64,000 nucleotides of DNA, from NCBI GenBank assembly GCA_028289345.1, contig JANQQL010000025.1:620001-684000 (forward strand). Reading direction: 5' to 3'. The stretch is from Planctomycetota bacterium (lineage in GTDB: Bacteria; Planctomycetota; B15-G4; SIAN01). Made by a program: the position numbers and the translations under genes. How positions within the stretch are numbered: position 1 is the stretch's first letter; each line of letters opens with the position of its first letter. Below are positions 9,503-41,544 of the stretch, one piece after another. The notes under the pieces were generated by a model that worked only from the letters and a program-made list of their open reading frames with translations, did not search any database and was not told the DNA's origin.

Positions 9503-9552
9503 GATGGAGCGAGCTCGCCGGGGAAGTCGTTCACGAATGTCTTGCAGAGCCT

Positions 9553-11113: not shown

Positions 11114-11125
11114 GGCATCCGTTTC

Positions 11126-15173: not shown

Positions 15174-16402
15174 GAAGTCAGCTCTCTTTCCTCGGGCTTG
15201 ATGGCCTCCTCTTCGAATGCAGGGAAGTGGAGTTCAAAGGTGGTTCCCCCTTGGGGACGGGGTCGGGCATGAATGCGGCCGCGGTGGAGATCGACGATGC
15301 GATGCACGATCGCGAGCCCCAAACCGGTGCCGTCAGCACGGCCGGTGACGAATGGCAGGAAGATGCGTTCGCGGATCTCTTCCGAGATTCCCGGGCCTCG
15401 GTCTTGCACCAAAAGGCGGGCCTCGTTGCCGATCTGCTCCGCGGTGATTTCGACGGGCGGACCTTCGGGGTCGGCTTCGCGAGCGTTCTCGACCAGATTC
15501 ACGAGGACTCGCTCGAGAAGCGTGGGGTCGCCATGGACGGTCAGCGAAGACGGTTGAGGAAGACCAAGCGACAGCACGTTCTCTTGGTCTGCAAAGTGTT
15601 CGGATACGAGCCGGAACAGGGACAGCACGGGAATCGGCTGAGGTTGGAAGCGTTCGGGTTGAGCGAAGCAGAGCAAGTTGGTGATGATGGCGTTGGCCTT
15701 GCGAACGCCGCGGATGATTCGCTCGGCGTACTCCCGACAGTCCTTTTCTTCCTTGGGGACCGTGTCCAGCAGGAGACCGGCGAACCCTTCCATGGCGTTC
15801 ATCGGATTGCGGATCTCGTGAGCGATGCCGGCTGCCATTTCTCCCAAGGCGGTGAGAGTTTCGGTGCGGCGCAGTTCGTGCCGCAGGATCTCGATCTCGG
15901 TTTCGTCGACCAAGCACTCGACTTCGCCGAGGTGGGCACCGGCCGCGGTTGTTACGGGCGACCGAGTGGAGCGAACGAAGATCGTCTGCTGAACCGTCAT
16001 CTGGAGTTGACGTGGCAACGACCCGGAGTCCGCGGAGCACACGGGCATTCCACGTCGATCGAAAAGCTCTGATTTGGGCAGTCCCAGGAGTGCGGCCGAA
16101 TCGAGGCCCGTCAGAGTTTCGAAAGCTCGGTTGACCAAGACGATTCGATCCTGGCGATCGGTGACCACCACCGCGGTTTGCAAGCTTTCGAGGACGGCTT
16201 TCAAGTGTCCGGAAGCTTCGTCGAGCTCCGCGACCTTCTGAGACAACGCGCGATTGGATTCTGCGAGGGCAAGGTCGATCTCCTTGGCCTGGCGACGAAG
16301 TCGGTCGTAAGCACTTTCCAGCGCTCCTGAGATCTGAGTGAACGCTTCGAAGGATCGCTCCAGCTCGGCAACCCGTTCGGCGGGAGGGGATTGAACGCTC
16401 AT
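15170..16402 (-). CDS. PAS-domain soluble sensor histidine kinase (FlgS-like)
   Basis: PAS-like VVVTDRQDRIVLVNRAFETLTG; H box LTALGEMAAGIAHEIRNPMNAMEGF; N/G boxes LVENAREADPEGPP, DRGPGISEEIRERIFLPFVTGRADGTGLGLAIVHRIV; 4-nt overlaps on both sides. Confidence 0.93.
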   Translation of the reverse strand: MSVQSPPAERVAELERSFEAFTQISGALESAYDRLRRQAKEIDLALAESNRALSQKVAELDEASGHLKAVLESLQTAVVVTDRQDRIVLVNRAFETLTGLDSAALLGLPKSELFDRRGMPVCSADSGSLPRQLQMTVQQTIFVRSTRSPVTTAAGAHLGEVECLVDETEIEILRHELRRTETLTALGEMAAGIAHEIRNPMNAMEGFAGLLLDTVPKEEKDCREYAERIIRGVRKANAIITNLLCFAQPERFQPQPIPVLSLFRLVSEHFADQENVLSLGLPQPSSLTVHGDPTLLERVLVNLVENAREADPEGPPVEITAEQIGNEARLLVQDRGPGISEEIRERIFLPFVTGRADGTGLGLAIVHRIVDLHRGRIHARPRPQGGTTFELHFPAFEEEAIKPEERELTS

Positions 16403-23753: not shown

Positions 23754-26700
23754 ATGATCTCGAAGACGTTTCGGCGAGGGCCAGCACCGACGAAAGATCT
23801 CCTCAAGATGCAGTTTCTCATCCTGGGTGCGCCGCACTCCGGCACCGAGTTGGTGGCTCGGATCCTGCAAGACTGGGTTGGTTCGGAAGGGGGAGCCGAA
23901 CTCGCCGCCGACGCCCGCCAGCGAGACCTGACCGAGTTGAATGACGAGTTGTTGGGGTTGGCCGGGTTTCGTTGGTTCGACGTCGATCCCGGCAGGATCC
24001 GAGGAGCCTGGGCGGATCTTCCGGGTTCTTGGATCGAGCGACTTCGTTCATGGATTCCGAGGGAACCGCAAACCTCCCAAGTGTTGGAAGACCCGCGGTT
24101 TTCGGTGACGCTGCCCGCGTGGGCTCCGGTGCTTTCCGGTGCTCATGCCGTTCTCTGTCACCGGCACCCGGGCGAAGTTGCTGGGGCGCTGCGCGGCTCC
24201 TCTTTTCTCGCACCCCCGCTGTCGCGGGAACTCTGGAAGACCTACTCGCACAGCGCGCTGCATGTGACTCGAGACCTTCCGCGCTCGACGGTTTCGATCA
24301 GGCGGCTTGTGGAGGCTCCGTTAGAAGCTCTCCAAGAACTAGCCGAGTCGTTGGCTTCCTCCGGGCTGATCGTTTCCGAGGAAAGGGTCGAGACTTCTGC
24401 GCAAGGCCTCAGGGAAGCCGGCACCGGTCTGGAGTCGGTTCCCGCGGTGGAGTTGGAGCTGTCCACCGAACTCCAGCGCATGATGAGGGAGTTGGACGCC
24501 GGCGAGCTGCCGGAAGTGGCGCCTCCTCGTGTCCACTCGGACGAGGTCCGTGCCGGTTGGCAGGTCTATGAAGAGGTGGCGCAACAGCTCGAACATGCCG
24601 CGGCCTTAGAGACTCGAGTCCGCGAACTCGAAGCCGACCGCGAAGCCCAACACGCAACGATTCAGCGGGTTCGAGCCCGCAATCAGGAGCTGCAAGACGA
24701 GGCCCGGCGTGCTCATCAGTACCAACAAGAGTTGGAGAAATCTCAGGGAGCATTGCGAGAGTTCGCCGATCGCCAAGAGCTCCAACGCTCCGAGTTGGAG
24801 CAAGTGGTCGAAGATCGGTCGCAGTTGCTCGTGTGGTTGAACGAAACCGAACAGGTGTACCGGCGGATGAAGAAGTCGGTGAGCTGGAAGCTAGCCCACG
24901 TCGGTCAAAAAGTCATTCCCGCAAAACAAAAGGAAACTGGTTTCCCAGGCAATCGGCTCCGTGACACGATCAAGAGCTTCCGCAAGTGGCGGGAGACTTG
25001 GGACCCGGATGCCGTCAAGGTCATCATGGGAAGTCCGGCCAGCACGGCACCCGCTCACGTCGTGGCGACCCGACCGGTGGACATCGTGGTGTGCGTCCAC
25101 AACAGTCCCGAGGACGTCCGTCGATGCCTGGACTCACTCGAGCGGCACACCAACCTTCGAAATCATCATCTGATTCTGGTGGACGATGGGAGTGAAGATG
25201 AAACGAGGCGTCTGGTCGTCGAGGCGGTGACACGACTGGGTGGTTCCTACATTCGTAACGAAGAGCCGCGTGGCTACACCCGTGCCGCGAACCAGGGGCT
25301 GAAGCGGTCCCGAGCCGCGCTGGTCATCTTGTTGAATTCGGACACCGTGGTCACTCCGGGTTGGGTGGAGGCGCTGGAGCGCTGTGCTCAGATCCCTGGT
25401 ACGGCTTGCGTGGGGCCGTTGTCCAACGCGGCTTCCTGGCAATCGGTTCCCGAACTCCAAGATCCGGACGGTCGCTGGAAGGTGAATGTCGTGCCGCCAG
25501 GGTTCACTCTTGACGAGTACGCCCGGTCGATTGCCGCGAATTCATGCCGCCTCTATCCGGAGGTGCCATTTGTCAACGGATTCTGTTTTGGGATCACCCG
25601 CCAAGCGTTGAACGAAGTGGGCTTCCTCGACGAAGAGAACTTTCCCCTTGGCTACGGGGAAGAAGACGATTTTGCGCTGCGTGCGATCGAAGCGGGGTTT
25701 CGCAATCGCATTGCCGACGATGCCTTTGTCTTCCACGCCAAGTCCAAAAGCTTCACACCGGAGCGTCGCAAGAAGCTCGTGGCAGAGGCCCGTCCAGTCA
25801 TCACCACCAAGCACCCGAAATTCACGGCTCTGGCCCGTTCGATGGAAGACCAAGAGGAACTCTTGCGATCTCGGGTCACTGCGAGGCTCACCGGCGCCCG
25901 TCGCCCCGAACCCGTGAGCGGTGGTTTGCCCGCGGAAACTTGGACCATCGCCTGGCTACAACCCCACTTGCGAACCGTTGGCGGGATCCGACGAGCGATT
26001 GAGATGACCAATCGAATGGTCGGTTGGGGACACCGAGCGATTCTGGTGACTCCCGAAGGAACGCCGGCGGACTGGCTTCCCATGGCGGCGGAAGTTTGCT
26101 CCGTAGAAGAGGCCAAGCAGCGGGAGCTAGATGTGCTGATCGTGTCCGATCCGGACATGGTCGAGCCGTTCCTCGCGATGACCGCCCGCACCAAAGTCAA
26201 CTACCACCTGGCCGCCTATGCCCAGTACCGAGATTCGGGGGCGCTCCTGGACCGTTACTACGGCCTCGGAGACGAGGTGATTCAGCTCGCCAACTCCCAA
26301 TGGACCGCGGAGCAGATTCCAGGAACTCCCGCCGTCGATGGAGTGTTGGCCGGGGGGGTTGATCCACGCTTGTTCCGACCCGTGCGAGGATCGGTGGCGT
26401 ACGACGTTGCTTGCTACGGCTCTCCCCGACCCCACAAGGGCACGGAGGCGATCGTCAAGGCGGCCGAGGGGTGGCGGTTGCTCCGTTTTCATTCCGTGGG
26501 CGCCGATCAGGACCAACTCGCAAACCTCATTGGATCGGCTCGAGTGTTTGCTTCTGCCTGCTGGCATGAGGGGTTCAACCTTTGTCCACTGGAGGCCATG
26601 GCCTGTGGCGTTCCCGTGGCCATGACCGATGACGGAGGCTCTCGTGAATACGCCCGCCATGAAGAGAACGCCCTAGTGGTGCGGCCGAAAGACGTGTCTG

Positions 26701-26855
26701 CATTGCGGGATGCGATCGAGCGTCTCTTGAACGATCGGCCGCTGCGCCGCCGACTCATCGAGAATGGGATGGCGACCGCTTGGTCCTACCGTTGGGACAC
26801 GGTCACTCGCCAGCTGCTGGAGATCCTCGCGTCGAGAGTGAATCCGACCGGGTGA
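23754..26855 (+). CDS. Multidomain protein: sulfotransferase-like N-terminus, coiled coil, GT2, GT4 (alternative start 23808)
   Basis: N-terminal FLILGAPHSGTELVARIL; GT2 VDIVVCVHNSPEDVRRCLDSLERHT...LNSDTVVTPGW...PLGYGEEDDFALRA; GT4 VACYGSPRPHKGTEAIVKAAEGW...ASACWHEGFNLCPLEAMACGVPVAMTDDGG. Confidence 0.88.
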   Translation: MISKTFRRGPAPTKDLLKMQFLILGAPHSGTELVARILQDWVGSEGGAELAADARQRDLTELNDELLGLAGFRWFDVDPGRIRGAWADLPGSWIERLRSWIPREPQTSQVLEDPRFSVTLPAWAPVLSGAHAVLCHRHPGEVAGALRGSSFLAPPLSRELWKTYSHSALHVTRDLPRSTVSIRRLVEAPLEALQELAESLASSGLIVSEERVETSAQGLREAGTGLESVPAVELELSTELQRMMRELDAGELPEVAPPRVHSDEVRAGWQVYEEVAQQLEHAAALETRVRELEADREAQHATIQRVRARNQELQDEARRAHQYQQELEKSQGALREFADRQELQRSELEQVVEDRSQLLVWLNETEQVYRRMKKSVSWKLAHVGQKVIPAKQKETGFPGNRLRDTIKSFRKWRETWDPDAVKVIMGSPASTAPAHVVATRPVDIVVCVHNSPEDVRRCLDSLERHTNLRNHHLILVDDGSEDETRRLVVEAVTRLGGSYIRNEEPRGYTRAANQGLKRSRAALVILLNSDTVVTPGWVEALERCAQIPGTACVGPLSNAASWQSVPELQDPDGRWKVNVVPPGFTLDEYARSIAANSCRLYPEVPFVNGFCFGITRQALNEVGFLDEENFPLGYGEEDDFALRAIEAGFRNRIADDAFVFHAKSKSFTPERRKKLVAEARPVITTKHPKFTALARSMEDQEELLRSRVTARLTGARRPEPVSGGLPAETWTIAWLQPHLRTVGGIRRAIEMTNRMVGWGHRAILVTPEGTPADWLPMAAEVCSVEEAKQRELDVLIVSDPDMVEPFLAMTARTKVNYHLAAYAQYRDSGALLDRYYGLGDEVIQLANSQWTAEQIPGTPAVDGVLAGGVDPRLFRPVRGSVAYDVACYGSPRPHKGTEAIVKAAEGWRLLRFHSVGADQDQLANLIGSARVFASACWHEGFNLCPLEAMACGVPVAMTDDGGSREYARHEENALVVRPKDVSALRDAIERLLNDRPLRRRLIENGMATAWSYRWDTVTRQLLEILASRVNPTG

Positions 26856-27059
26856 TCTCCGCAATCCCGAAAGCCGTGGAGAGCCCACGGATTCGCCTGC
26901 AGTACGACTTCTCGCCGGATGCGAGAATCTTTCGAATCGGACATCCAAGGCCTTTCTCAACGGCCGACGAGTGTTTCACCGCAGCATCCTTCCTGAGAAC
27001 CCCACGAAAACTTCGAATTCGTGAACCCGATCTCTGGTCGGCGGGACTCCCTGGGCACT

Positions 27060-29651
27060 ATGTCGAATCCGACCACACCGTCTGCCGAATCGTTGCTGTC
27101 CCACGCCGCTTGGGTGGGAGCCCTCGCGGTTTCTTTGGTTCGTGATGCGAGCGAGGCCGAAGATCTGGCACAAGAGGTGCTCCTCGAAGCGTTGCGTCGT
27201 CCGCCGCGGCAGCGAGGGCCGTGGCGTCCTTGGTTGAAGACCGTCGCCAAGAACCGCGCACGCCGACTCGCCCGCGAGTCACAGCGGCGCACGGATCGGG
27301 AGCGGAAGTCCGCACTCTCGGAAGTCGAGGATCGGGAACCCGCGGACATCGTGCAGCGCGCGTCTCTGCAACGGCAAGTGGTGAATGCGGTTCTGGACCT
27401 GGACGAACCGTACCGAACGACGGTTCTGCTGCGCTACTTCGATGGGCTGACTCCGGCAAAGATCGCCAAGAGACAATCCGTTCCCGTGAGTACGGTGCAA
27501 ACCCGGCTCAAGCGTGGCCGTGCTCGTCTCCGTGAGGCGCTCGCGCCAGAGCCAAGTCAGCGGCAATCCTGGGCTCTGGCAATGGTTGCGTTGCTTTCTG
27601 AGTCCCAGCGGGCGTTGTTGCGCGGATCCTTGATGGGGGTTTCTTGGTGGGCCGGAGGAGTGTTGTTGATGACGACGACGACGAAGGCCTCGCTGATCGT
27701 GTTGGCGATCGCGGGATGGGCATTGTTCGAGTACTCCTTCCCGTCGGCCCCCGCTTCCGACCCGCTCGACGCCGGATCTCCGGGCGATCATTCGCTGCTC
27801 GCGGATGTTCGGCCATCCCTTCCTGAGGTGAACCGACGAGAGCCGGTCGAACCGTCGAAGGGCCATTCCGCGTTGATCTCAGCGGCCAATGCCGCTGAGA
27901 AATCCACCTCTCCCAAGGAGGTCGCACTGCGGGGGCGAGTCTTCTCCCAACGAGGAGATCCGGTGTCCGACGCCTGGGTTCTTCTTCGAGGCAGCGTCGG
28001 CGCCTTGAATCTGCGCACGGAGGGACGGTCGCTGCTTCGACGCTATCGATCCGGCGAACTTCCGGATGGCTACTTTCGAGCGATCACGGATCCGAACGGG
28101 CACTTTTCCTTTGCCGAGGGCCCGGTCAAAGGTTCGTGGGACCTGTTGGCTTGCCATCCGGATCGGGGCATTGCTGCTCGTTCCGGAATGGTGCCCGAAC
28201 ATTCCCTCGGCGAGGTTTTGCTGACCTTGGAGCCGGGAGTGGTGTTGTCGGGGCGAATCAGTGATCCGAGTGGCGCTCCCCTGGCAGGGGCAAACGTGTC
28301 AGTGATGTCCTATGGGGAAGAGAACACGGTCAACGCTCCCGACTGGGTCCAGAGCGATCCGTTCGGGGATTACCGCAGCCTGACGATGCCGGGGAATCGC
28401 TTCTTGCTGTCGTTGCGCGCTCCCTCCTTCTACTCGACGCACCGGGTCGTCGAAGTGCCGCCCGGGTCTGAGGCTCATCGGGTCGACTTCGTGCTCGAAC
28501 CTGCTCCCCGGTGGAGTGGACGGATCACGGATCCCCATGGGCAGCCTGCAGGTCTCCGGGAAGCGGTGGTTCGACGAGCCGGGGAGAGCGCCTTGAAAGA
28601 GGTGGCTCTTTTCGTTTCCCGGTTGCATCCGTCGACCACCGTGAACTTCCGAGCCGGCTCCCCGGTCGAGGGGACGATCGAACTCCAACAGGATGGTTAT
28701 GAAATCTGGCCCGAACAGCCGGAGGACCGCTTCGTCTCGGTTTGGGTCGGAGATGCGTTGCTGGGTTGGGTGGATCGATCCAACGAATCTGCGGACTCTG
28801 ACATCGTGGTGGACGTGGAAAAGATCCCCGCGAAGGGACCTTTCGGAACTCTGACTTTGCAAATCCTGCACGAGGGGTCTCGAGAGCCGGTGTCGAGAGG
28901 CGAGGTCCGGCTTTGGTGTGAGGATGCTTGGGAGGAGGAGTTCTTCGGCGGGAAGCGATTCTTCCTGGATCCGGCCACCATGCATGGCGGCGCGTTCACC
29001 GTTTCTGAAGTGCCCTATGGAGATTGTCGACTGAGAGTGTCGTCGGGGGAGTCGGCGGTCATCCTTCGAACGGAGGTTCGCTCGGAAGATCAACGGCTGG
29101 TCGTGGAGTTGCCTCCGGTCGATGGGAGCCTGACCGTGCGGGTCACCGGAGAGTCGGGCCGAGTGCCCGAATCCACCGAACTCACCTTGCTCAACGAGGA
29201 CGGGGAGTTCTGGTTTCCTGTCGCGTCTCAGTTTTCGATCAACGAGCAAGGGACCTGTTTGTTCTCGGTGCCACGGGGGAAGTACTGGGTCGTCGTGATT
29301 CCGCAAGACCAAGTCCATGGAGCGCTGGCGCAGCTGGTGGAAGTGGACCAGAACAGCACTGCGGAGGTGATCGTTCCCCGCGCGGAAATGATCCGGCTCG
29401 AGTCTCGTGGCACAGCACGGGGGCCCTTCGAATTCGTCATCCGTGACTCGCGAGGGATCCCCGTCATCGAAAGTCGTCGCGACGGACGGCGTCACTTCGG
29501 TGCAGGAGGTGGTCCGTTCTACGTCGCCCCGGGAGACTACACCGTCGAGGTCCGCTGCCCCTCCTTCACCCTCGAGCCGTTCTCGGTTGCCTCCCGCTCG
29601 GACGAGGCCGCGGTCGAATTCGAGATGCAACTCGTCCAGTCCTCCCCCTGA
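27060..29651 (+). CDS. ECF sigma factor fused through a TM segment to a large region with carboxypeptidase-regulatory-like domains
   Basis: Sigma2-like SLVRDASEAEDLAQEVLLEAL...WLKTVAKNRARRL; sigma4-like VLDLDEPYRTTVLLRYFDGLTPAKIAKRQSVPVSTVQTRLKRGRARLREAL; TM KASLIVLAIAGWALFEYSF; repeats such as LEPGVVLSGRISDPSGAPLAGANVSV. Confidence 0.85.
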   Translation: MSNPTTPSAESLLSHAAWVGALAVSLVRDASEAEDLAQEVLLEALRRPPRQRGPWRPWLKTVAKNRARRLARESQRRTDRERKSALSEVEDREPADIVQRASLQRQVVNAVLDLDEPYRTTVLLRYFDGLTPAKIAKRQSVPVSTVQTRLKRGRARLREALAPEPSQRQSWALAMVALLSESQRALLRGSLMGVSWWAGGVLLMTTTTKASLIVLAIAGWALFEYSFPSAPASDPLDAGSPGDHSLLADVRPSLPEVNRREPVEPSKGHSALISAANAAEKSTSPKEVALRGRVFSQRGDPVSDAWVLLRGSVGALNLRTEGRSLLRRYRSGELPDGYFRAITDPNGHFSFAEGPVKGSWDLLACHPDRGIAARSGMVPEHSLGEVLLTLEPGVVLSGRISDPSGAPLAGANVSVMSYGEENTVNAPDWVQSDPFGDYRSLTMPGNRFLLSLRAPSFYSTHRVVEVPPGSEAHRVDFVLEPAPRWSGRITDPHGQPAGLREAVVRRAGESALKEVALFVSRLHPSTTVNFRAGSPVEGTIELQQDGYEIWPEQPEDRFVSVWVGDALLGWVDRSNESADSDIVVDVEKIPAKGPFGTLTLQILHEGSREPVSRGEVRLWCEDAWEEEFFGGKRFFLDPATMHGGAFTVSEVPYGDCRLRVSSGESAVILRTEVRSEDQRLVVELPPVDGSLTVRVTGESGRVPESTELTLLNEDGEFWFPVASQFSINEQGTCLFSVPRGKYWVVVIPQDQVHGALAQLVEVDQNSTAEVIVPRAEMIRLESRGTARGPFEFVIRDSRGIPVIESRRDGRRHFGAGGGPFYVAPGDYTVEVRCPSFTLEPFSVASRSDEAAVEFEMQLVQSSP

Positions 29652-29931: not shown

Positions 29932-31377
29932 CTAGTCCTTGCGCCGAAGGAAGTACAAGGTGCGCTCAGAGCCTTCGATAGAGATTCTTTCTTCGATCTC
30001 GAACCATTGGCCGAAGCTCGCCTCGAATCCCTCTTCGTGGTAGTCCGGGAAAATGTCCTCGCGGGTCGCGAGGAGCTTTCTTACCTGGGAGTCGCTCTTT
30101 GGCACGAACTCCAGAATCACGGACTTGCCGACGTCGTGGAAGAATCGGGCGAGGTGATCGAAAGGCAGGTTGTTGGAAATCGCCAAGTGATGAATCAGGG
30201 CTAGGCCCATGACCAGGTCCGCGGGACCGCGCTCGGCGAGAGAGTCTCGCTCCCGATGGTGCCAGCCCAAGGAGGGGCTGGGATTGGTCAGGTCCAAGAC
30301 GAGAGGAAGGATGTCCTTTCGCTGGTCGGATTGGATCTGACGGTAGTTTTTTTCAACGGCCACCGGGTCGATGTCGAAGGCGACGGCGGCCACCCCCGCC
30401 GCTTCCGCAGCGATTCGCGAGAAATGGCCGTTGTTGGCGCCCAGATCCCAAACGGATTGAGGCTTTGCCTTGGCTGCCAGCCGGGCGACCAACTCCTGCT
30501 TCTTGGCCATGGATTGGTCGTCGTAATTGGTGTCCGCGTAGTAGTCGCCCCACTCAGTGCCGGCCGGCTTCCATTCGAGTTTGCGGACGGTCGACTGAAG
30601 GTTGTCCACCAGGGCGGTGAGCCGGAACTTGCTGATCTTTGCATCTCGGGCTTTCGCCGACTTGCCGGTCGCGGCATCGTCGGCGTGGCGCTTCTGGGAC
30701 CCGGCGTGCAGGTGCAGGTGGGTCAACAGGGAGAACTTCCACTTGGTCCGAGACGGGAGCAGCTTGCTGGCGAGGTCCAGGGGCACGCCGTCGATGTAGA
30801 CGCGGAGCAGCTGGCTCAGGCGCACATCCTGGTAGGACATCAATGCCAGTGGTGCTAGGAAGTGCTGGCAGAACTGACGGTAGGCGACCCACGGTTTCCC
30901 TTCTTCGTAGCGCTCCAATGAGAGCGTGTCGATCAGGACCGGGCGTCCTTCCAAGAATTGGATGTTGTAGGCGCTGCAATCTTTCAGCGACATGTCGTGT
31001 TCCATCGCCAGTCGCTGAATCTGCAACGTCAGCAGCGCGGCGTCCTTCAGCTGACTGAAGGACCATTCGTAGGGATACGAGATGAATGGCACGCGCTCGG
31101 GAGCGATGACCGTGAAGCCCAGTTCCGGATCCACGAACTCCTTGGGGGCTTCTTCGTGTCGGACCAGCAGTCGATCACTGACAAGACGGTCGTACAGACC
31201 GTCGGGACGCATCAATCGCTGAAAGTCTTCGCGATAGACTTCGTTGACTTGGCGAAAGAGCGTGCCGTCGCGCTGGAAGAGAAAACCGCTCGGATCGCGG
31301 AACGAACTCGGCAGCCTGCGTTCAGCCGGAGTGCTCCGTCTCATCCTCGCCATCCTTTTCCATGCCGCCCTTGCCAA
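29932..31377 (-). CDS. Class I SAM-dependent methyltransferase, NoeA-like by recollection
   Basis: SSFRDPSGFLFQRDGTLFRQVNEVYREDFQRLM...; SAM motif VWDLGANNGHFSRIAAEAAGVAAVAFDIDPVAV; alternative starts 31353/31344. Confidence 0.82.
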   Translation of the reverse strand: MARAAWKRMARMRRSTPAERRLPSSFRDPSGFLFQRDGTLFRQVNEVYREDFQRLMRPDGLYDRLVSDRLLVRHEEAPKEFVDPELGFTVIAPERVPFISYPYEWSFSQLKDAALLTLQIQRLAMEHDMSLKDCSAYNIQFLEGRPVLIDTLSLERYEEGKPWVAYRQFCQHFLAPLALMSYQDVRLSQLLRVYIDGVPLDLASKLLPSRTKWKFSLLTHLHLHAGSQKRHADDAATGKSAKARDAKISKFRLTALVDNLQSTVRKLEWKPAGTEWGDYYADTNYDDQSMAKKQELVARLAAKAKPQSVWDLGANNGHFSRIAAEAAGVAAVAFDIDPVAVEKNYRQIQSDQRKDILPLVLDLTNPSPSLGWHHRERDSLAERGPADLVMGLALIHHLAISNNLPFDHLARFFHDVGKSVILEFVPKSDSQVRKLLATREDIFPDYHEEGFEASFGQWFEIEERISIEGSERTLYFLRRKD

Positions 31378-31543
31378 AGATTCCCGAGACGGTCATGCAG
31401 ATGCGCGACCAGAACATCCGGATCGCGAAGACCGCACCCAGCACGATGCCGACCACGGCCTGCAAGATGATGCTGCCCGTCCCGGGATCCAGGTAAGCCA
31501 GCACGGGTTCTGCCAGGTGGAACGACTCGAGAGGAATCATCAT
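31322..31543 (-). CDS. 73-aa single-TM microprotein with YLDPGTGS motif
   Basis: MMIPLESFHLAEPVLAYLDPGTGSIILQAVVGIVLGAVFAIRMFWSRICMTVSGIFGKGGMEKDGEDETEHSG; overlaps the methyltransferase start. Confidence 0.8.
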   Translation of the reverse strand: MMIPLESFHLAEPVLAYLDPGTGSIILQAVVGIVLGAVFAIRMFWSRICMTVSGIFGKGGMEKDGEDETEHSG

Positions 31544-31866
31544 GGGAATTCACCGCCCTCGGGATGCCGGCGAGCAGTGGTCGGCGGAAGGACGGTTCCA
31601 CCCCCACGAACTCCACTGGCTTCCATCATGGAACGACTGGACGGGAACAAGCCTGCCCCAGGACATTGCCTCCCGACCGCCAGAGCAGACCGTGAAACCG
31701 TGAGGTGAAACCCTGAGCGAGTCGATTGCTCACGGCCGTGCCTTGTTGGCCGTGATCGAACCGTTCGATCCGCTCGGAGGCCTTCACCTTGGGCCTGCCC
31801 ACGCCGGAAAGAGTAGTCGATGCCCCCGAGCCAAGTCAATTGCCCCAGGGGGGCGCGAGAGAGCAG

Positions 31867-34800
31867 CTACTCCGAGGCGGGAGCGCTCGGTGCCATGCCT
31901 CGACGAAGCGGCACTTTGATGCTCTGCCGCGAGGAAAAGCCGTCCCCTGTGTCGAAGTACACGCGAGAGAAGTCGCCGGCCGAGGTGTTGAGCTCGAATC
32001 GCAGGGTCGCCGATGTCGCTTGGGACAGGTCCAAGGGCGTGAGGTCCTTGGTCCGGAAGTAGCCAAGCCGCTCCCCGGAGTCGAGAAAGACGTCTGGGGT
32101 CTGGAGAACGTCGATGCGTGTGGGAGCCAGCTGTTCGGGCGCCTGCAAGCGAGAGTGTCGCTCGCCATTGACCCATAGCTCCACGTTGGCGAGTCGAAGA
32201 ACACAAGATTTGTCGGATGGCGTGAGCTGGATCCCTCGGAGGGTCTCCCGAGGAAGATCGACCTCGAAGGGCATCGGAGCAATTGCCAGGAGAGCATCGC
32301 GGGCTTTCTGGAAAGGTTCCGTTCCCGGTACCAGACGAGCTCCCGGCTCCAGAGCATCGTTCCACAGACGCTTGCCCGTAAGGCTGATCAAGTGACGAAC
32401 CACGCCAGGGTCCAACGTGATCTTGCTCACGGTCTGACGGTTCTTGGAAAGCGCCAGGAACGTGGGCAATCGGCGAATCTCTTTCAATCGGCCGAGAGGC
32501 ACGACGAAACGGAACCCGAACAAGCGGTTCTCATCGACGGAGAACGCTTTGGCGATGCCCCGGGACGCGGTGTTCAAGCTTCCCGCGAACAGCACTCGCT
32601 GTTCGTCGATCGCCACGATCAAGTCCGCGGGCTGCCCTCGGTCCCAGTCCGCTCCCCAGCCTTCGAAAACGACCGTGTCTTCGATGACATCGGTATCGAG
32701 GACGACGCCGCGGACCACACCGCTCGAGTCAAGGTCGTAGCGACTTCCTTGGCGGCTGGTGAGAACTCCCGCCACGGGGTCATAGGCATAGGCCGGGACG
32801 GTCGAGAGGGCACTCCCGCCGGGCGGGCCGAGAAGGAGGGTTTGGCCGTCGCGAGACTCGAGGCGATAGAGGTTCACCGCATTGTGACCGGAAACGAAGT
32901 ACTGGTCGTCGACAATGCCGGAAAACAAAGTGGTGCCATCCACGGAGTAAGTCGTCGCGATTCCGGCGATCACTCCGTTCAAGCATAGCGCGAGGGGATC
33001 TCCCGCCTGGAGGTCGTTGGGTTCGTTCCAGCGTCCGTTGAGGCGAGCCGGGACGAAGGCCCCGGACCGGTCCACTCGCTCGAGCAGCGCTGCTTGTTCC
33101 AGTTCGTAGTCTTGGGCCTCGACGCGAATGTCCAGCTTCTGGACCGATTGGCCGACCAAGTTTCGATGAGGTCCAAAGCGGAACAAGTCGCTGTCCGCCT
33201 CGCCGAGTTGGAAGTGCTTGGCGGTGCGGTCCAGGGCCTGCTGACGGGACTCCAGCACTGCGTCATAGGAATAGGTGATCAGCGAGGCGTCCCAGTTGAG
33301 AAAGGTTCGCTCCGCCGGTTTCTCTTGGCTCGCCTGCTGCAGGGGGCGCCCGTCGGTCTCCCACGGCAGGTTCAGCCCCATGGCGGATGCAATCGTGGGC
33401 AGAATGTCGACAATTTCTGCATGCACCTCACTCACTTCCCCGCTCAATTGCCCGGGAAGTTTGACGAGCAGCGGAACGAACATCACCTCGCCCACTCCTG
33501 CCTCGGAGAGGCGTCGCTTTTCCACGCCGGCCTGGTAGGCGATTCCGTGATCCGCGACCACCACGATGAGTGATTCGTCGTAGAGCTTCTCGCGTCGGAG
33601 TTTGTCGAAGAACTCACCCAACAGGGAGTCGACGTAGCTCATCTGAAGGAGGTGCCGCCATTGGTATTCGGCGACGATATTGGGCGCTCCCATCCAGCGG
33701 TCGTTGACGATGGAAACGCCGGTGATGTGGGGAGCGGTCAAGTACTTCTTGCCGGAGGGAAGGTACTCCCACGGCGTGTGCGGCATCATCAGGTGCAGGA
33801 AGTTCACCGTCGGTCGGGTCGAATTCTCGATGCCTCGCACGAAGTCGCGGAAGAATGCCGGGCGGTCACCTCGGAGAATGGCGTCGCGGCGTTCGTCGAT
33901 CGTTTTTTTGTCCGGGATGTCCTTCCAAGGTTCTTCCCCAGAGACGGCGTCTGGAGAAGGGGGCGGCTCGGCCACCTCGGTCTCTGCCGCCGCGCGTGTG
34001 GCAGCGGCGTCTCGAGCAAAATCTCCCCACTGGTTGTCGATGGCCGGAAGCGAAGTTGTGTAGCTCGCCGGTGTGACGACGTGGAGGTAGACCACTCCTA
34101 GATCCGAGAACAACGACTTCATCCGCTCGCCATAACTCAGAGCGGACTCGCTGCGTCCGGACAGTTCATCGGGGCACAGATAGGTCGACACCTCGAGCAC
34201 GTTGTAGTCGTACTCTTCGGCCAACCAGGTGAACAGATTGTCGGGATGATCGGCCACATTGGGAAGCAAGCGAGTGATGGGACGGATTCCCGTGAGGACC
34301 GAAGGAACAGCCAATGCCGTCGCCGTCGCAACCGAAGTCGCATTCCGGTACCAAGTGGCGGACTCTGCGAACTTCGCCAGATGAGGAAGCCGCTTGGCGT
34401 CCAGATTGCCTTTTGCGTCCATCAGAGAGAGGGAGGGACACTCGTCCAGGACGATCACTGAGATGGGTGGTTTCTGTTTGGCGTGGGCGAGGGAGCCGCC
34501 GGAAGAGGAAGTGGCCGCGGCGGGGAAGATCACGCTCTTGACCGGCGATCCGAACACGAACAGGGCGACAAAGCCTCCCGCCACCAGGGGAGCGGCGGTC
34601 GAGAGCAGCAAGCGAAGGGGGCGTGAGCCGGCGTAGAGCGAAACGCCCAAGAGACCCACGACGGCCATGGCAGCGATGGCAAGGGCACCGCTGAATGGGT
34701 CGAGGAGTCTCAACGCGGGGGCGGCGTACAACGCCACCAGCAAGCCGACGAACAGGAAATGGACAACCAGTCCGGCCGGTCGAGCGACCCACCAGGCCGC

Positions 34801-35049
34801 GCCCACCAAGGTCGCCATTCCCAGAGGGAGTAGCAAGCCGAGGGTCAGGACTAGCGTCCAAAGATCCTCGGGCTGCGAACCACGCACGACGAAGAACGAA
34901 GGGTTCTCGGCAGTGACGCGGAACAGTGGCTGGGCAATCCCGAGACTGCTCAACGCCCACAAGTGCACGGTGCAATGCCAAAAACCGAGGAGTGGATTGG
35001 TCTTCGTGGCGCTCGTCTTGGGCGTCGGTGAGGAGGGGGCGTCCGTCAA
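31867..35049 (-). CDS. Membrane-anchored sulfatase-like / alkaline phosphatase superfamily protein
   Basis: Several N-terminal TMs; ISVIVLDECPSLSLMDAKGNLDAKRLPHLAKFAESATWYRNATSVATATALAVPSVLTG; ESLIVVVADHGIAYQAG metal-binding motif. Confidence 0.85.
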   Translation of the reverse strand: MTDAPSSPTPKTSATKTNPLLGFWHCTVHLWALSSLGIAQPLFRVTAENPSFFVVRGSQPEDLWTLVLTLGLLLPLGMATLVGAAWWVARPAGLVVHFLFVGLLVALYAAPALRLLDPFSGALAIAAMAVVGLLGVSLYAGSRPLRLLLSTAAPLVAGGFVALFVFGSPVKSVIFPAAATSSSGGSLAHAKQKPPISVIVLDECPSLSLMDAKGNLDAKRLPHLAKFAESATWYRNATSVATATALAVPSVLTGIRPITRLLPNVADHPDNLFTWLAEEYDYNVLEVSTYLCPDELSGRSESALSYGERMKSLFSDLGVVYLHVVTPASYTTSLPAIDNQWGDFARDAAATRAAAETEVAEPPPSPDAVSGEEPWKDIPDKKTIDERRDAILRGDRPAFFRDFVRGIENSTRPTVNFLHLMMPHTPWEYLPSGKKYLTAPHITGVSIVNDRWMGAPNIVAEYQWRHLLQMSYVDSLLGEFFDKLRREKLYDESLIVVVADHGIAYQAGVEKRRLSEAGVGEVMFVPLLVKLPGQLSGEVSEVHAEIVDILPTIASAMGLNLPWETDGRPLQQASQEKPAERTFLNWDASLITYSYDAVLESRQQALDRTAKHFQLGEADSDLFRFGPHRNLVGQSVQKLDIRVEAQDYELEQAALLERVDRSGAFVPARLNGRWNEPNDLQAGDPLALCLNGVIAGIATTYSVDGTTLFSGIVDDQYFVSGHNAVNLYRLESRDGQTLLLGPPGGSALSTVPAYAYDPVAGVLTSRQGSRYDLDSSGVVRGVVLDTDVIEDTVVFEGWGADWDRGQPADLIVAIDEQRVLFAGSLNTASRGIAKAFSVDENRLFGFRFVVPLGRLKEIRRLPTFLALSKNRQTVSKITLDPGVVRHLISLTGKRLWNDALEPGARLVPGTEPFQKARDALLAIAPMPFEVDLPRETLRGIQLTPSDKSCVLRLANVELWVNGERHSRLQAPEQLAPTRIDVLQTPDVFLDSGERLGYFRTKDLTPLDLSQATSATLRFELNTSAGDFSRVYFDTGDGFSSRQSIKVPLRRGMAPSAPASE

Positions 35050-35789
35050 TGCACTAGCACCTCGTCGAACATCGTTTCGTAGGGAGTCCCTTCGTACAGG
35101 CGGCGGACTTCTTGGAAGTTCAGCAACATGACCGTGAGGTCGTCTTTGGTTTGCTTCTGGGGAATCTGGTCAGATTCATGGTCCAGCAGTGCCGGGTCGA
35201 TGTCGAGGAACTTGCCGAGAGAGGCCAGGGTGGCCTGCCGATCGGTCAAGAGCTCTTCGTAGTCCAGATGGTGGACGGGCAAGGGCAGAGAGGCCACTCG
35301 CTCCGTGAGTTCGGTCTCGCGAATTTCCAGGTTCTTCAGCAACTTGCGAAATCGATCGATGTCCAGCTCGAAAGGTCCGGGAGCGGTTTGCCCTTTCCGC
35401 AGGTGGACGCTCCCGGTGACTTCTTTGAGGCGCAGGGAGTTCAAGATGGAGACCCCTTGCTTCACTCGATTGCGCCGCTGCATGTGAATGACCTTGGCCT
35501 TCTCTTCGATCAGGGCGTTGTAGAAGCCTTCTTTGTCGAGGAGGTCATTGGGCTTGATTTTGAAGCCGGCGCAGATCAGCTTCGGGTGCTTGCGTCGCCG
35601 TTCCTGCGCCTTCTGATAGAAGCCGTGGACCATCGCGACCTGGGCCGCCGCTCCGTCCTCTTGGCGCTTCAGCGACTCCAACAGCTTTTCGCCCTCGAAG
35701 TGAACTTCGGGGGATGTGTTCAGCAGCATCCGCAGGTAGGCACTGCCACAGCGACCGTGGAACACCACGGCGAACTTTGTCATTTCCAT
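35046..35789 (-). CDS. Sulfotransferase-like protein
   Basis: KFAVVFHGRCGSAYLRMLLNTSPEVHFEGE resembles a PAPS 5'-phosphosulfate loop; VHHLDYEELLTDRQATLASLGKFLDID; 4-nt overlap with the next gene. Confidence 0.75.
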   Translation of the reverse strand: MEMTKFAVVFHGRCGSAYLRMLLNTSPEVHFEGEKLLESLKRQEDGAAAQVAMVHGFYQKAQERRRKHPKLICAGFKIKPNDLLDKEGFYNALIEEKAKVIHMQRRNRVKQGVSILNSLRLKEVTGSVHLRKGQTAPGPFELDIDRFRKLLKNLEIRETELTERVASLPLPVHHLDYEELLTDRQATLASLGKFLDIDPALLDHESDQIPQKQTKDDLTVMLLNFQEVRRLYEGTPYETMFDEVLVH

Positions 35790-35936: not shown

Positions 35937-37046
35937 TTGAAACGCATTCTTCTCGTCAATGACACCGGGCAGACGTCCAACCCTGGTTGCCAAGCGGCCA
36001 GCCGAGGAGTGCGACGGGCCTATGCCCAACTCACCGGTTCGTGCGAGTTTCGTTCGCTGCCCCTTGGCTATGGGGTCGATCCGTTTCGGGCGCTCGCCGC
36101 GGCGCCCCGAGACTGTGTGGTGCGAGAGGCCGATCGCTTCGCTCACGGCCGAGACGTGACTCCGTCCGTCGACGTGGATCGTTTCGGCGAATCCGTGTTA
36201 ACCCTGGAGAAAAGCGACCCCGAGCTAGCCGCATTGGCCGAGTGGGCCGACCTCGTGGTGGTCAACGGCGAGGGATCCCTGCACCATCAGTTTCCGCGGG
36301 CCCTGGCCTTGATGGCGCTGCTCCGAGTCTTTTCGAAACGAGTTGCCGTGCACCTGGTCAACTCGACGTTGCAGGGCGTGCAGGCGTCTCTCTGGCAGTT
36401 CGTGTCGCAGGAGCTGGCCGGAGTCCACGTTCGGGATTCTCGAAGTGCGGCATTCGTGCGAGAGCAAGGGCAGGAGCCTTTGCTGACTCCTGACCTGGCA
36501 TTGTTCGAGCTGGAGGTTCCTCCGGTGATCTCGGCGACCTCCTCAATCGCCCGACGCGTTCTTCTGACCAGCGGAGTGCTGGTCACTCGAGAAGGGCTGC
36601 ATGCGCAACTCGAAGTCCTTCGCCATCAAGAATTCGAGCCCGTGTACCTTTGCATTGGTGATGGGGGGGAAGAGAAGATCGTTCGAGAAGTCTGCGGGGA
36701 AGAGACGCCCGTCGTTGCCGCCGGGCCCCTCGGACCCTCCGGGGTGATGCGCCTGGCCTCGGAGTTTCCCTTGGCAGTTTCCGGCCGTCATCACATCAAC
36801 TTGTTTCTCGCGACCGCGGGAGTTCCTTTCGTGCCCTTGCCCTCCAACACCTGGAAAATCGAAGCGACCCTGAAAGACCTCGGATATCCGCGGCAGCCAT
36901 CGGCGAACGCCAAGGAGTTGGGGCAAGCGGTGGGCGAAACCTGGACTCAGCGGGAGTCGTGGGCGGAGGCGGCTCGTGCCATGGGCGAGCGCGGATTGGC
37001 CCGAGTGAGGGAGTTTCTCCCAGGAGTCCGAACATGGAGGTCCTGA
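35937..37046 (+). CDS. Polysaccharide pyruvyl transferase family protein (TTG start)
   Basis: LKRILLVNDTGQTSNPGCQAASRGVRRAYAQL; LVVVNGEGSLHHQFPRALALMALL; AVSGRHHINLFLATAGVPFVPLPSNTWKIE. Longer ORF upstream is overprint of a minus-strand gene. Confidence 0.78.
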   Translation: MKRILLVNDTGQTSNPGCQAASRGVRRAYAQLTGSCEFRSLPLGYGVDPFRALAAAPRDCVVREADRFAHGRDVTPSVDVDRFGESVLTLEKSDPELAALAEWADLVVVNGEGSLHHQFPRALALMALLRVFSKRVAVHLVNSTLQGVQASLWQFVSQELAGVHVRDSRSAAFVREQGQEPLLTPDLALFELEVPPVISATSSIARRVLLTSGVLVTREGLHAQLEVLRHQEFEPVYLCIGDGGEEKIVREVCGEETPVVAAGPLGPSGVMRLASEFPLAVSGRHHINLFLATAGVPFVPLPSNTWKIEATLKDLGYPRQPSANAKELGQAVGETWTQRESWAEAARAMGERGLARVREFLPGVRTWRS

Positions 37047-37741
37047 CCCCCTTCGACTTGGTCCAGCGATTTCCGGAGCGGCAGACCGTCGCCATCGTCG
37101 GCAACGCCCCTTCCTTGAAGGATTATCGACTCGGAGACTTCATCGATTCCCACGACATCGTGGTGCGCTTCAACGAAGCCGCCATGGCCGGTCATGAAGA
37201 GCAGGTGGGGCGGCGCACGGACATCCTGGTCGCCAATCCCTACCCGGAGAAACGCAAGCGCCCGCTTCTCGATGGAGGGCGTGCGACCTGTGTACTCATC
37301 GTGAACCCACCAACCCGACGGGGGGACAAGCAAGTCTTCGAGCGTTGGGTCGGGGATCATCCGGTGTTGTTCACCTACACCCCGGATCTGGTCGGGGTGG
37401 AAGAGTCCACCCATCAGCGCGGCCTGACGACGGGGACCTATGCGATTCAACTGCTGTGGCGATTGCTGCATCCTTCGCGATACTTCATCACGGGCTTCAC
37501 CATGTTCTTGGAAGGGGCGCCCGGCCACTACTGGAGCTCGTCCCAGCCTCCAGGGATTCGAGCCCACGACATGATCACCGAAGCCGCAGTTTTCATCCGC
37601 GTGCTGAACGCTGCGAACGTGCCGGTGTGCGTGACTCCGGACATCCAGTGGGTGTCCGAACAGATCCAAGTCCCCTTGCTGCCGCGCATCCGTCTGATCG
37701 ACGGGCAATCGCCCCAGCTCAACGACGAAGCCAGCCGATGA
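37034..37741 (+). CDS. GT29 (sialyltransferase)-like protein
   Basis: VAIVGNAPSLKDYRLGDFIDSHDIVVRFNEA (L-motif-like); GLTTGTYAIQLLWRLLHPSRYFITGFTMF; 13-nt overlap with the preceding gene. Confidence 0.75.
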   Translation: MEVLTPFDLVQRFPERQTVAIVGNAPSLKDYRLGDFIDSHDIVVRFNEAAMAGHEEQVGRRTDILVANPYPEKRKRPLLDGGRATCVLIVNPPTRRGDKQVFERWVGDHPVLFTYTPDLVGVEESTHQRGLTTGTYAIQLLWRLLHPSRYFITGFTMFLEGAPGHYWSSSQPPGIRAHDMITEAAVFIRVLNAANVPVCVTPDIQWVSEQIQVPLLPRIRLIDGQSPQLNDEASR

Positions 37742-40700
37742 AGATCGCCCAGTTCGGGACGTTCGATGTTGAGAACTACGGGGACTTGCTGTTTCCGAAG
37801 ATCCTGGAGAAACGGCTCGAAGGCCTCGGCGAGTTGGTGTTTGTCTCGCCCATCGGGGGAGCTCCGGTTTGGCGCGACTGCGTGGCGAGCGTGTCGTTCG
37901 ACGAGTTTCGCTCCTCTGCCGCGGAGTTCGCCGGCCTGGTCATTGGCGGTGGCAACATCGTGCATGCGTCCACGACCACTTTGCCGAGCTACCAGCAGCG
38001 CACCGTGCCGTTGACGGGATACGCCGACCTGTGGCTCGGCCCCTTGGAGTTCGCCGCGCGCGGGGGAGCGGCCGCACTGTGGAATGCTCCCGGAGTGGCG
38101 GAAGCATTGCCCGAAAACTTGGCGAGTCTGGTTCGCGATCGCATGAAACATGCCCGCTACCTCAGCGTGCGTGACCGATCGAGTCGGGACCTTCTGGCCA
38201 GCGCGGGCATTGCCTCTCCGATTGCCGTGGTTCCGGACACGGCCCTCGACGTCACTTCGGTGTGGTCTCCGACGGAGCTCGAATCGGAGTACCATCGGTT
38301 TCTCGTCGAACGCAACCTCGATGCCCAAGAGGACCTGATCGTCTTCCACGCCAAGCGCCGCTACGGCCAAGGCGGAGTGGAGGTCATGGCCGAGGGAATT
38401 CGTGGAATCTGCGAACATTGGGGAGCAACGCCGGTTCTTCTTGCCATCGGGCCGTGTCATGGAGACGACGCCGTGGCGCGAGAAGTCGGGGAATGTCTCG
38501 GCTCGAATGCGGTGGTCGTCGAGCGTCCTGGGAGCTTGAAGCGAGTCACGGCGCTGCTGGCGAGTTCCCGGGGCTACGTGGGGTCGTCCTTGCACGGAGC
38601 GATCGTAGCGACGGCGTTTGGACGACCGGTGTTCGTCGTGGCGTCACGCCAGACCCAGAAGTTTCAGGGTTTCCTGGAGCCCTTGGGTCTGGACGGCCAG
38701 CAAGTGGACACCTGGTCGGAAGCTCTCCACGAGCGATCTCGGGCTCTTCAGGCTCCCGACGTTTCCGCCGAGTTGGCGGTGGCGAGGAAGTGTCTCGACA
38801 GCCACTTCAGCACGCTGCGGGAACTGCTGAAGGAGGCCGGGGAGCGGCACGCGGGCCACTCGTGGGTTCCGGAGCTGGCGTATCGGAGCGGAGTCCTGGA
38901 AGCCGCCGGATTGCGGCTCCTTCACGAGCGAGAAGAGGCTCGCGAGGAAGGGAAGCGAACGAGGCTCGAGTTGCGAGAAACCCAAGGGGCCCTGAGTGAG
39001 AGTCGCCAAGCTCATGGTCGGGCGCAGAACGAGTTGACCCGTTCCCAATCAGAGCTTTCGAAGCTTGGAAAGCAGTTCCGCGACAGTCAGTTGCGAGCGA
39101 AGAAGCGGTTCACCGAACACCAGCAGAGTCATCTCGAGGACCTCGAGACCACGAAGACTTGGGTGGAGAGGCTGACCGGTTTCGTCGAGCGCATGGAAAA
39201 GTCGCGCTCTTGGAGATTGGGCAAAGCATTGTGGCGAGTGATGCGATCCCTTCGCCTGACCCGGAAGAAACCCAGCCGTTCGCCGCGTCGAGCACGCGAG
39301 ATCCTGCGTGAGATGCAGGTCTGGTACGGACGGCGGATCGATCGTTGGCAGAAGCGTGAGGCAGCAGCCGCCAAGGATTGGCCAGAGAACGCGCCGCCGG
39401 GAGGGCACCTGATCGACTTTGCCGGGCGAATCACGGTCTTGATCCCGGTCTACGATGCGGTGGAGGCCGTGGAGCGGTGCGTGGACTCGGTCCTCGCATC
39501 GACGAAGGTGCCGCATCGGCTGCTCCTAGTGAACGATGCCAGCCCCGATCCTCGGGTGGCTCCGTTGTTGGCCAGCTATGAGCAGGCTCACGGCCATGTG
39601 AAAGTCGTCACCAATGAGCGAAACCTGGGTTTCACGAGAACCGTCTGCCGCGGATTCGAAGAGTCTGGCAACGACGACGTCGTGATCTTGAATAGCGACA
39701 CCGTGGTTCCCCGTGGTTGGCTGGCCCGACTGTCGACGGCCGCCTACCATCGCGATCGGATCGCGACGGTCACGCCGCTTTCCAACGCCGCCGGGGCGTT
39801 CAGCGTTCCGGTCAACCATCAGATCAACCAAGTGCCGGAAGAGCTGGGCGTGGAGGGCATGGATGCCTTGGTCGAGGAGCTTTCCGAGCGGCGATGGCCC
39901 CAAGTGCCCACGGCCAACGGGTTCTGCTGCTACCTCCGCCGGGATGCCTGGGTCGAGGTCGGTGGTTTCGATCCGCAAAACTTCCCGCGCGGCTATGGCG
40001 AAGAGAACGACTACTCCATGCGCGCGGCGGCGGCCGGATGGGTCAACGTCGTCGACGACACGACCTTCGTCTTCCACGAGCGTTCGGCATCCTTCGGAGA
40101 AACGAAGAATGAGCTCGCGGAAGCAGGAAAGAAGCGGCTTCAGGAGCTGCATCCCGACTACAAGAAGAAGATCCGGGAGTGGTTGCAGAACGATCCCGTG
40201 GATCCCCTGCGAGCCAAGCTAACCCAGGCCCTCGAGTCCAAGGCCCCGCCGACCGTGCCAACCACGGTGGCCGCTCCACGGGGAGCCATTCTGTACGTGA
40301 TCCACGATGGCGGCGGAGGAAGCGTCCTCACCAACCTGGACTTGGTTCGAGAGGTGTCCCGAGATCGTCGCTGTTTGCTTCTCCGCGCGGATCTCAACAA
40401 GTGGTCCCTGGACGAAGTTCAGAACGACTCTGCCCATCCCGTGGAAGAGGTCGCGTTCGAAAACCGCTGGGGAATCCAGTGGCCGCTCGACGAGCCGCGT
40501 CGCCTGGCCTTTTCGCGAATTCTGCGCGAGCAAGGCGTTTCTTTGGTGCACTTCCGTGGTTTGATCGGCACGGATCCCCAGGCCCTTGCCATTGCCCGGG
40601 AGGCCGGTTGCCGAACGATCTTGAGCTTCCACGATTCGTACCTGGTGTGCCCCACCGTCGGTTTGGTCAACAATCGCGGCGAGTTTTGCGCCGGCCGTTG

Positions 40701-41544
40701 CAACAACGACGCGGATGACTGCCAGCTCAGCAAGCGCTGGTTTCCGGGCCTTCCTCGTCTGAAGAACGGCTTCGTGCACGAGTGGCGGCGTCGCGTGGCG
40801 GAGGGTATCCCGGAAGCTGACGCCTACGTGGTCACGACCGAGAGTGCGCGACGCCTAGTGTCGTCCTACTACCCGGTCGTCAGCGGCCGTCGACTCCATG
40901 TCATCGAGCACGGTCGCGATCTTGCGGGATACCAGGACAGCGCCGAGGCTCCCGGGGAGGGGCCCATGGGAGTGGTGTTCTTCGGGGCTCTGGGCCACCT
41001 GAAGGGCCCCGATCTGGTGCAGGAGTTGGTCGAACGAAACCAGCGGGAAGGCAGCCCTTTCGAGTTCCACATCTTGGGCGACAAAGCGGCCTCATTTCAG
41101 CCGGAAAAGTTCGGCGCCCACGTGCACGGTCCCTACCAGCGCGACGAGTTGCCCCGATCCCTGGCGAAGATTCAGCCGTCCGTTGCACTCGTTCCGTCCC
41201 GTTGTTCGGAGACCTACTGCCACACGTTGACCGAGGCTTGGGCGGCGGGCCTGCCGGTTCTCGGCAGCCATTTGGGGGCGGTGCGAGATCGCATCCAGGC
41301 CCACGGCGGCGGCTGGATCCTCGATCCTCACGACGCCAATTCGTGGTACGAAACGTTGCTTCGTCTGCGGCAGCATCCCGAAGAGTGGCAGGCCAAAAAG
41401 CGCGAAGTCGACGCCCTTTCGATCGTGTCACTCCCGACGATGGTGGCTCGCTACCAAGATCTCTACCGGTCGGTGGAACAGGGTGCGGAACGCCAGGACG
41501 TGCTGACCCCAGAGAACGGCATCGCCCGGGGAGCCACCGGCTAG
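37738..41544 (+). CDS. Giant multidomain protein: pyruvyl-transferase-like domain, coiled coil, GT2, GT4
   Basis: MKIAQFGTFDVENYGDLLFPKILEKRL; AGLVIGGGNIVHA; coiled coil; GT2 ITVLIPVYDAVEAVERCVDSVLASTKVPHRLLLVNDASPDP...LNSDTVVPRGW...FPRGYGEENDYSMRA; GT4-like C-terminus. ATGA overlap with the preceding gene. Confidence 0.88.
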   Translation: MKIAQFGTFDVENYGDLLFPKILEKRLEGLGELVFVSPIGGAPVWRDCVASVSFDEFRSSAAEFAGLVIGGGNIVHASTTTLPSYQQRTVPLTGYADLWLGPLEFAARGGAAALWNAPGVAEALPENLASLVRDRMKHARYLSVRDRSSRDLLASAGIASPIAVVPDTALDVTSVWSPTELESEYHRFLVERNLDAQEDLIVFHAKRRYGQGGVEVMAEGIRGICEHWGATPVLLAIGPCHGDDAVAREVGECLGSNAVVVERPGSLKRVTALLASSRGYVGSSLHGAIVATAFGRPVFVVASRQTQKFQGFLEPLGLDGQQVDTWSEALHERSRALQAPDVSAELAVARKCLDSHFSTLRELLKEAGERHAGHSWVPELAYRSGVLEAAGLRLLHEREEAREEGKRTRLELRETQGALSESRQAHGRAQNELTRSQSELSKLGKQFRDSQLRAKKRFTEHQQSHLEDLETTKTWVERLTGFVERMEKSRSWRLGKALWRVMRSLRLTRKKPSRSPRRAREILREMQVWYGRRIDRWQKREAAAAKDWPENAPPGGHLIDFAGRITVLIPVYDAVEAVERCVDSVLASTKVPHRLLLVNDASPDPRVAPLLASYEQAHGHVKVVTNERNLGFTRTVCRGFEESGNDDVVILNSDTVVPRGWLARLSTAAYHRDRIATVTPLSNAAGAFSVPVNHQINQVPEELGVEGMDALVEELSERRWPQVPTANGFCCYLRRDAWVEVGGFDPQNFPRGYGEENDYSMRAAAAGWVNVVDDTTFVFHERSASFGETKNELAEAGKKRLQELHPDYKKKIREWLQNDPVDPLRAKLTQALESKAPPTVPTTVAAPRGAILYVIHDGGGGSVLTNLDLVREVSRDRRCLLLRADLNKWSLDEVQNDSAHPVEEVAFENRWGIQWPLDEPRRLAFSRILREQGVSLVHFRGLIGTDPQALAIAREAGCRTILSFHDSYLVCPTVGLVNNRGEFCAGRCNNDADDCQLSKRWFPGLPRLKNGFVHEWRRRVAEGIPEADAYVVTTESARRLVSSYYPVVSGRRLHVIEHGRDLAGYQDSAEAPGEGPMGVVFFGALGHLKGPDLVQELVERNQREGSPFEFHILGDKAASFQPEKFGAHVHGPYQRDELPRSLAKIQPSVALVPSRCSETYCHTLTEAWAAGLPVLGSHLGAVRDRIQAHGGGWILDPHDANSWYETLLRLRQHPEEWQAKKREVDALSIVSLPTMVARYQDLYRSVEQGAERQDVLTPENGIARGATG

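Follow-up and report, generated by a model that had tools for sequence, protein, structure and literature searches.

A conserved YLDPGTGS microprotein encoded next to NoeA-type methyltransferases in diverse bacteria

We identified a family of membrane microproteins (MP) that neither Pfam nor NCBIfam contains, that is present in hundreds of species and that is mostly encoded directly beside a NoeA-type protein with a methyltransferase domain (MT). One member lies in the window, i.e., the 64,000-nt stretch of DNA analyzed here, which belongs to an 8.4-Mb Planctomycetota genome. In a genome-collection scan, 73 of 80 MP loci had an MT no more than 251 bp away, and in 68 of the 80 it is located directly downstream on the same strand; one of the seven loci without a close MT stops at a contig edge. 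Where at least 3.5 kb were available on both sides, MT was present in 39 of 44 loci and a gene for a membrane protein of the alkaline-phosphatase superfamily (ALP) in 32 (73%).

The microprotein locus and its sequence family

The locus consists of four open reading frames on the minus strand, encoding MT, MP, ALP and a sulfotransferase-like protein (ST), in agreement with the initial annotation, which had also noted both gene overlaps and the single transmembrane segment (TM) of MP. ALP and ST overlap by 4 nt (TTGA at 35049-35046), and MT overlaps the stop of MP by 23 nt when it starts at the ATG at 31344, the likelier start within an ORF spanning 29932-31377. Since ALP and MP are separated by 323 nt, the four genes need not share one transcript. 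Pfam and NCBIfam recognize only the C-terminal methyltransferase domain of MT, the sulfatase-like domain of ALP and, weakly, the sulfotransferase; MP has no Pfam, NCBIfam or PHROG model, and the same holds for 15 of 15 diverse relatives in family scans.

Genes of the microprotein locus in the window
Gene	Predicted product	Position	Strand	Length	Remark
MT	NoeA-family putative kinase-like domain plus class I SAM methyltransferase	29932..31344	-	470 aa	
MP	YLDPGTGS microprotein, single TM, basic tail predicted to be cytosolic	31322..31543	-	73 aa	
ALP	NoeB-like membrane protein, alkaline-phosphatase-superfamily domain	31867..35049	-	1060 aa	TTG start
ST	Sulfotransfer_3 protein, local accessory	35046..35789 (ATG), alternatively ..35825	-		PF13469, E 2.8e-6

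The locus is surrounded by glycosyltransferases and one pyruvyl transferase. Two giant glycosyltransferase fusions of GT2 and GT4 are encoded on the plus strand (23754-26855 and 37345-41544), the second of which additionally has a polysaccharide pyruvyl transferase domain and is adjoined by a GT29 sialyltransferase-like ORF at 36959-37741. A single ORF at 27021-29651 (plus strand) combines ECF-type sigma-70 regions 2 and 4 with a long C-terminal part bearing a carboxypeptidase-regulatory-like domain. Elsewhere in the window we observed a flagellar-type cluster with a FliI-like ATPase and a FliF-like M-ring protein (8243-12610, minus strand), followed by a sigma-54 response regulator (13737-15173), and a second sulfatase-superfamily protein of 902 aa (56216-58924, plus strand).

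Because a five-row subset of MP sequences served as the profile, the 15-row alignment being too diverse, the scan of one genome per species was limited to relatives with an exact AYLDPGTGS. It returned 474 candidate stretches, of which 80 MP loci were retained for neighborhood analysis. In these 80 sequences, in which the Ala before the Tyr and the letters of YLDPGTGS were preset by the search pattern, a hydrophobic stretch lies upstream of the motif in 79%, and a cleavage-like A-x-A precedes the Tyr, with Ala at position -3 in 82%. The motif is followed by Q in 98%, then by about 17 hydrophobic residues with A/GxxxG/A, and by a tail with K/R in 87% and W in 91% that continues with [RK]IK.FF (overall K..W.[RK]IK.FF). 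In the wider MP set the core is Y[LIV]DPxxG. The window MP, which reads AYLDPGTGSIILQ and then enters its one TM, fits the proposed family in its core, the following Q, the TM and the basic tail. A clear signal peptide is missing from it and from several others, with the polarity of the protein unchanged.

Neighbors and fusion partners of the microprotein

The linkage also holds in the converse direction: 70 of 78 MTs, sampled from four taxa (Planctomycetota, the phylum of L036, the phylum of L107 and the class of L074), have an MP, always within 225 bp, and 68 have it directly upstream on the same strand. When the same MP profile was run on 523 kb of control sequence, it detected, apart from the MP of the window, only two further copies, both in loci that already carry an MP. 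Moreover, pairs that are more distant in MP also tend to be more distant in MT (r=0.37, kinship uncorrected), with none of 2000 permutations reaching as high a value. A phylum is named for 51 rows of the tree, and these cover 17 phyla. The initial annotation had made its interpretation depend on conserved co-occurrence of the peptide with methyltransferase or phosphatase-like genes, and had mentioned LDPGTGS peptides beside methyltransferase and sulfatase-like genes in other bacteria; the two surveys bear out both. MT was not found in the phage collection. The only in-frame candidates for fusions of MP with MT or ALP (L102 and L117) are likely chance upstream extensions of an ORF and were rejected.

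Loci with MP but without MT reveal a more general partnering of MP, as CDP-glycerol-type glycerophosphotransferases (PF04464) often adjoin it. In L062, L069 and L084 such a gene follows MP directly in place of MT. Among 16 strong MPs from a Gammaproteobacteria sample (n=274 genomes), eight have MT within 1.5 kb, three adjoin or cluster with PF04464 (L158, L159 and L163), two are fused to the N-terminus of PF04464-like enzymes (L161:123-1448 and L165:2216-3589) and one has ALP (L162); in the stretches read around the remaining two (L160:6719-6949 and L164:6549-6848) there is no MT, ALP or PF04464 gene. We assigned the enzyme part of the two fusions from its homology to proteins of L158, L159 and L163 that match PF04464. 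A query of the same sample with the fused protein found the subfamily in five genomes, all five of which carry MP. Weak gammaproteobacterial matches (L149-L156, E ~5e-6 to 1e-3) were left out of these counts and rejected as MPs, since the motif is missing near the match and only L153 has a dissimilar FLDPG protein.

In L058 (8241-10728) and L062 (8237-11957) MP adjoins genes for PEP mutase-cytidylyltransferases of phosphonate synthesis, hinting at phosphonate-decorated glycans. Besides its glycerophosphotransferase, L062 encodes a TPP enzyme resembling phosphonopyruvate decarboxylase as well as a second MP copy (~14.0-14.3 kb, minus strand) adjoining an ALP gene (14359-16050, minus strand).

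Conservation of the protein across phyla and the enzyme fusions in two genomes indicate beyond reasonable doubt that MP is translated. The links and fusions to PF04464, the signal-peptide-like start (A-x-A before Y), the one TM and the basic tail argue for an N-out/C-in anchor, and the fusions would place the C-terminus of MP in the cytosol, where CDP-activated donors are used. MP would thus probably sit in the membrane as a single-pass protein, with YLDPGTGS outside and the basic tail inside.

Predicted activities of the enzymes and related systems

By sequence, MT is a full-length NoeA homologue with a putative N-terminal kinase-like domain and a C-terminal SAM methyltransferase: it shares 36.4% identity with Sinorhizobium NoeA over 99% coverage (tblastn against plasmids, E 2e-68). 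The label "NoeA-like" was therefore apt; "methyltransferase" was correct for the SAM domain (PF13489 at its cut-off) and incomplete otherwise, because the conserved kinase-like domain makes MT more than a methyltransferase. R31, D122, N127 and D139 as well as D300/G302 are invariant in 42 MT homologues, the most distant of which is ~30% identical to the window MT. We assign the N-terminal half as kinase-like on this conservation together with a published analysis, the Legionella pan-kinome (PMC9758233), which describes the Lani_1194 family as kinase plus methyltransferase, with equivalents of D166/N171/D184 conserved, Arg in place of the catalytic Lys and the ion-pair Glu not found. On its own, the kinase-like domain has no relative by sequence in PDB or Pfam. 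The AlphaFold model of MT (pLDDT 93.9) has WbdD (4azs) as its best Foldseek match, with E 4e-8 in the methyltransferase part.

Three genomes sampled from the taxonomic family of the window genome have no MT, and two MTs from the same order share 38-40% identity with the window MT, compared with 50-59% for many more distant Planctomycetota. In a maximum-likelihood tree with a weak backbone, the window MT pairs with a Bacteroidota row (97/89), outside the Planctomycetota rows. This patchy and divergent occurrence in near relatives and the pairing in the tree make horizontal acquisition of the window MT likely. In L019 (~8270) one in-frame TAG interrupts the MT frame, with good conservation on either side of it; this may represent a sequencing error, a pseudogene or read-through.

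ALP matches PF00884 (E 1.4e-18) and aligns with the NoeB core at only 22% identity over 175 aa (E 5e-7). Its AlphaFold model (pLDDT 71, core ~90) has five or six helices, then the catalytic domain and then beta-rich C-terminal domains; Foldseek matched it to sulfatases and to phosphonate monoester hydrolases. The window ALP is similar to a longer subclade (L072, L060, L082 and L033). Among 19 relatives the metal site (D202, H419, H424, D500 and H501) is invariant and T244, at the nucleophile position, near-invariant. A Thr nucleophile is typical of LtaS-type phosphotransferases and phosphodiesterases, and Cys or Ser of sulfatases; T244 thus disfavors a strict sulfatase. Fold and residues together indicate that ALP is a membrane enzyme of the alkaline-phosphatase superfamily like NoeB.

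The noeA and noeB genes were described as host-range nodulation genes for particular Medicago species (Ardourel et al. 1995, as cited in PMC4053727 and PMC9048898). In Ensifer, S. meliloti and Rhizobium we found the order nodL, an unnamed 71-aa YLDPGTGS protein, noeA, noeB; in Sinorhizobium the MP between nodL and noeA is annotated merely as "hypothetical protein". The nodL-noeA-noeB operon thus resembles the window locus in its MP-noeA-noeB set, full-length MT homology and ALP-fold partner, and S. meliloti noeA overlaps its upstream small ORF by 23 nt, exactly as MT overlaps MP. In contrast, the window ALP lies upstream and carries a C-terminal extension, and family searches of the larger window genes found no nod genes. 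Of 27 M. truncatula genotypes, 17 were not nodulated by an S. meliloti strain whose noeA is truncated (PMC4053727), a result that fits a role of the module in surface or Nod-factor chemistry without proving it. The Lani_1194 family shares with the locus its membership of the NoeA family, an ALP-fold neighbor and a conserved small neighborhood, with Lani_1193 in 65% and Lani_1195 in 38% of 816 neighborhoods (PMC9758233); from its position and frequency we infer that Lani_1193, the sequence of which is not described in the main text of that paper, is MP.

WbdD, which caps the O antigen of E. coli O9a, phosphorylates the terminal mannose and subsequently adds a methyl group to that phosphate (PMC3482155). 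Like MT, WbdD unites kinase and methyltransferase in one chain and is its closest solved fold; it belongs to a different family, however, and the alignment is restricted to the methyltransferase. Compared with the WbdD order (methyltransferase, kinase, coiled coil), the domains of MT are reversed and the C-terminal coiled coil is missing. By analogy alone, MP also resembles DltX, a small membrane protein of the dlt operon without which a phosphate-rich surface polymer is not decorated (PMC5541007).

Proposed role of the microprotein and implications

From the observed conservation of the families, their linkage and fusions, the catalytic residues and the folds we infer a substrate, a product, a reaction order, physical binding and subcellular sides as follows. 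MP would be a membrane docking subunit, its basic tail recruiting a cytosolic enzyme through which a lipid-linked surface glycan receives a phosphate-containing group. By analogy with WbdD, a NoeA-type MT would phosphorylate a glycan hydroxyl and then methylate the product, giving a phosphorylated, methylated glycan, perhaps a phosphomethyl chain cap. The outward motif may contact the lipid carrier, a flippase or ALP, and the membrane ALP would afterwards hydrolyze or transfer the phospho-group on the outer face. We regard this model as having about an even chance of being right. Docking to MT is favored by the MP-MT linkage, the distance correlation, the links and fusions to PF04464, the anatomy of MP and the glycan-gene setting, and WbdD-like chemistry is proposed because the kinase residues of MT are invariant and WbdD is its closest solved fold. 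Among the readings considered, glycan decoration with the peptide as membrane partner, as suggested in the initial annotation, fits best. Against the model, an outward YLDPGTGS that never varies is more than a simple anchor would require, two gammaproteobacterial MPs (L160 and L164) have no obvious partner nearby, and glycan enzymes are only modestly enriched among the flanking genes surveyed.

In a rather unlikely alternative, MP chiefly partners the outward ALP or a glycan flippase, comparable to DltX, and its linkage to MT reflects only a common pathway. The most conserved part of MP is predicted to face outward, ALP is near almost three quarters of the assessable MP loci, and in L045, L069 and L162 MP has ALP nearby and no MT. 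MT linkage is nevertheless tighter than ALP linkage (39 versus 32 of the 44 loci), and both MP fusions join a cytosolic-side enzyme rather than ALP. A little less probable still is that the kinase-like domain has no activity or targets proteins or soluble signals, making the module one of methylation only or of signaling. The substituted Lys, the missing ion-pair Glu and a kinase domain unmatched by sequence, including to any Pfam kinase, point this way and count against phosphorylation; invariance of R31, D122, N127 and D139 down to ~30% identity would be unusual for a dead kinase, and MP also partners phospho-transferring glycan enzymes. Far less credible is the four-gene sulfation and methylation decoration module with ST that had been read from the window. 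The overlap of ST with ALP speaks for it, but an ST homologue occurs in none of the 80 MP loci, nor in the Planctomycetota loci L015-L025, so that ST was rejected as a core member and a conserved unit is largely refuted; such a module may hold locally in the window genome.

The docking model can be extended to a broader, more tentative proposal, which we rate somewhat short of an even chance. YLDPGTGS peptides, including that of the noeA operon, would be widespread adapters joining several phosphate-adding enzymes to lipid-linked glycan assembly: NoeA-type kinase-methyltransferases, CDP-glycerol-type phosphotransferases and possibly phosphonate transferases. The mature peptide would start at the Tyr, and its outward DPGTGS loop would recognize the carrier or the ALP enzyme on the outer face.

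The MT family, its ALP partner and the nodulation phenotype were known already, and the papers accessible to us state the chemistry of NoeA/NoeB merely as a hypothesis. The suggestion of an undescribed system therefore probably holds for the MP component, and not for noeA/noeB or for the kinase-methyltransferase family and its conserved neighbors described in PMC9758233. Literature searches with variant spellings of the YLDPGTGS motif yielded no relevant paper, and the searchable literature, which does not include Ardourel 1995 or the supplements of PMC9758233, holds no description of the identity of MP, its topology, its alternative partner, its fusions or its presence in the noeA operon. MP represents the missing conserved third component of the noeA-noeB operon and ties this operon to a system present in at least 17 phyla, for which our model would predict a WbdD-like phosphate-plus-methyl chemistry of NoeA/NoeB.
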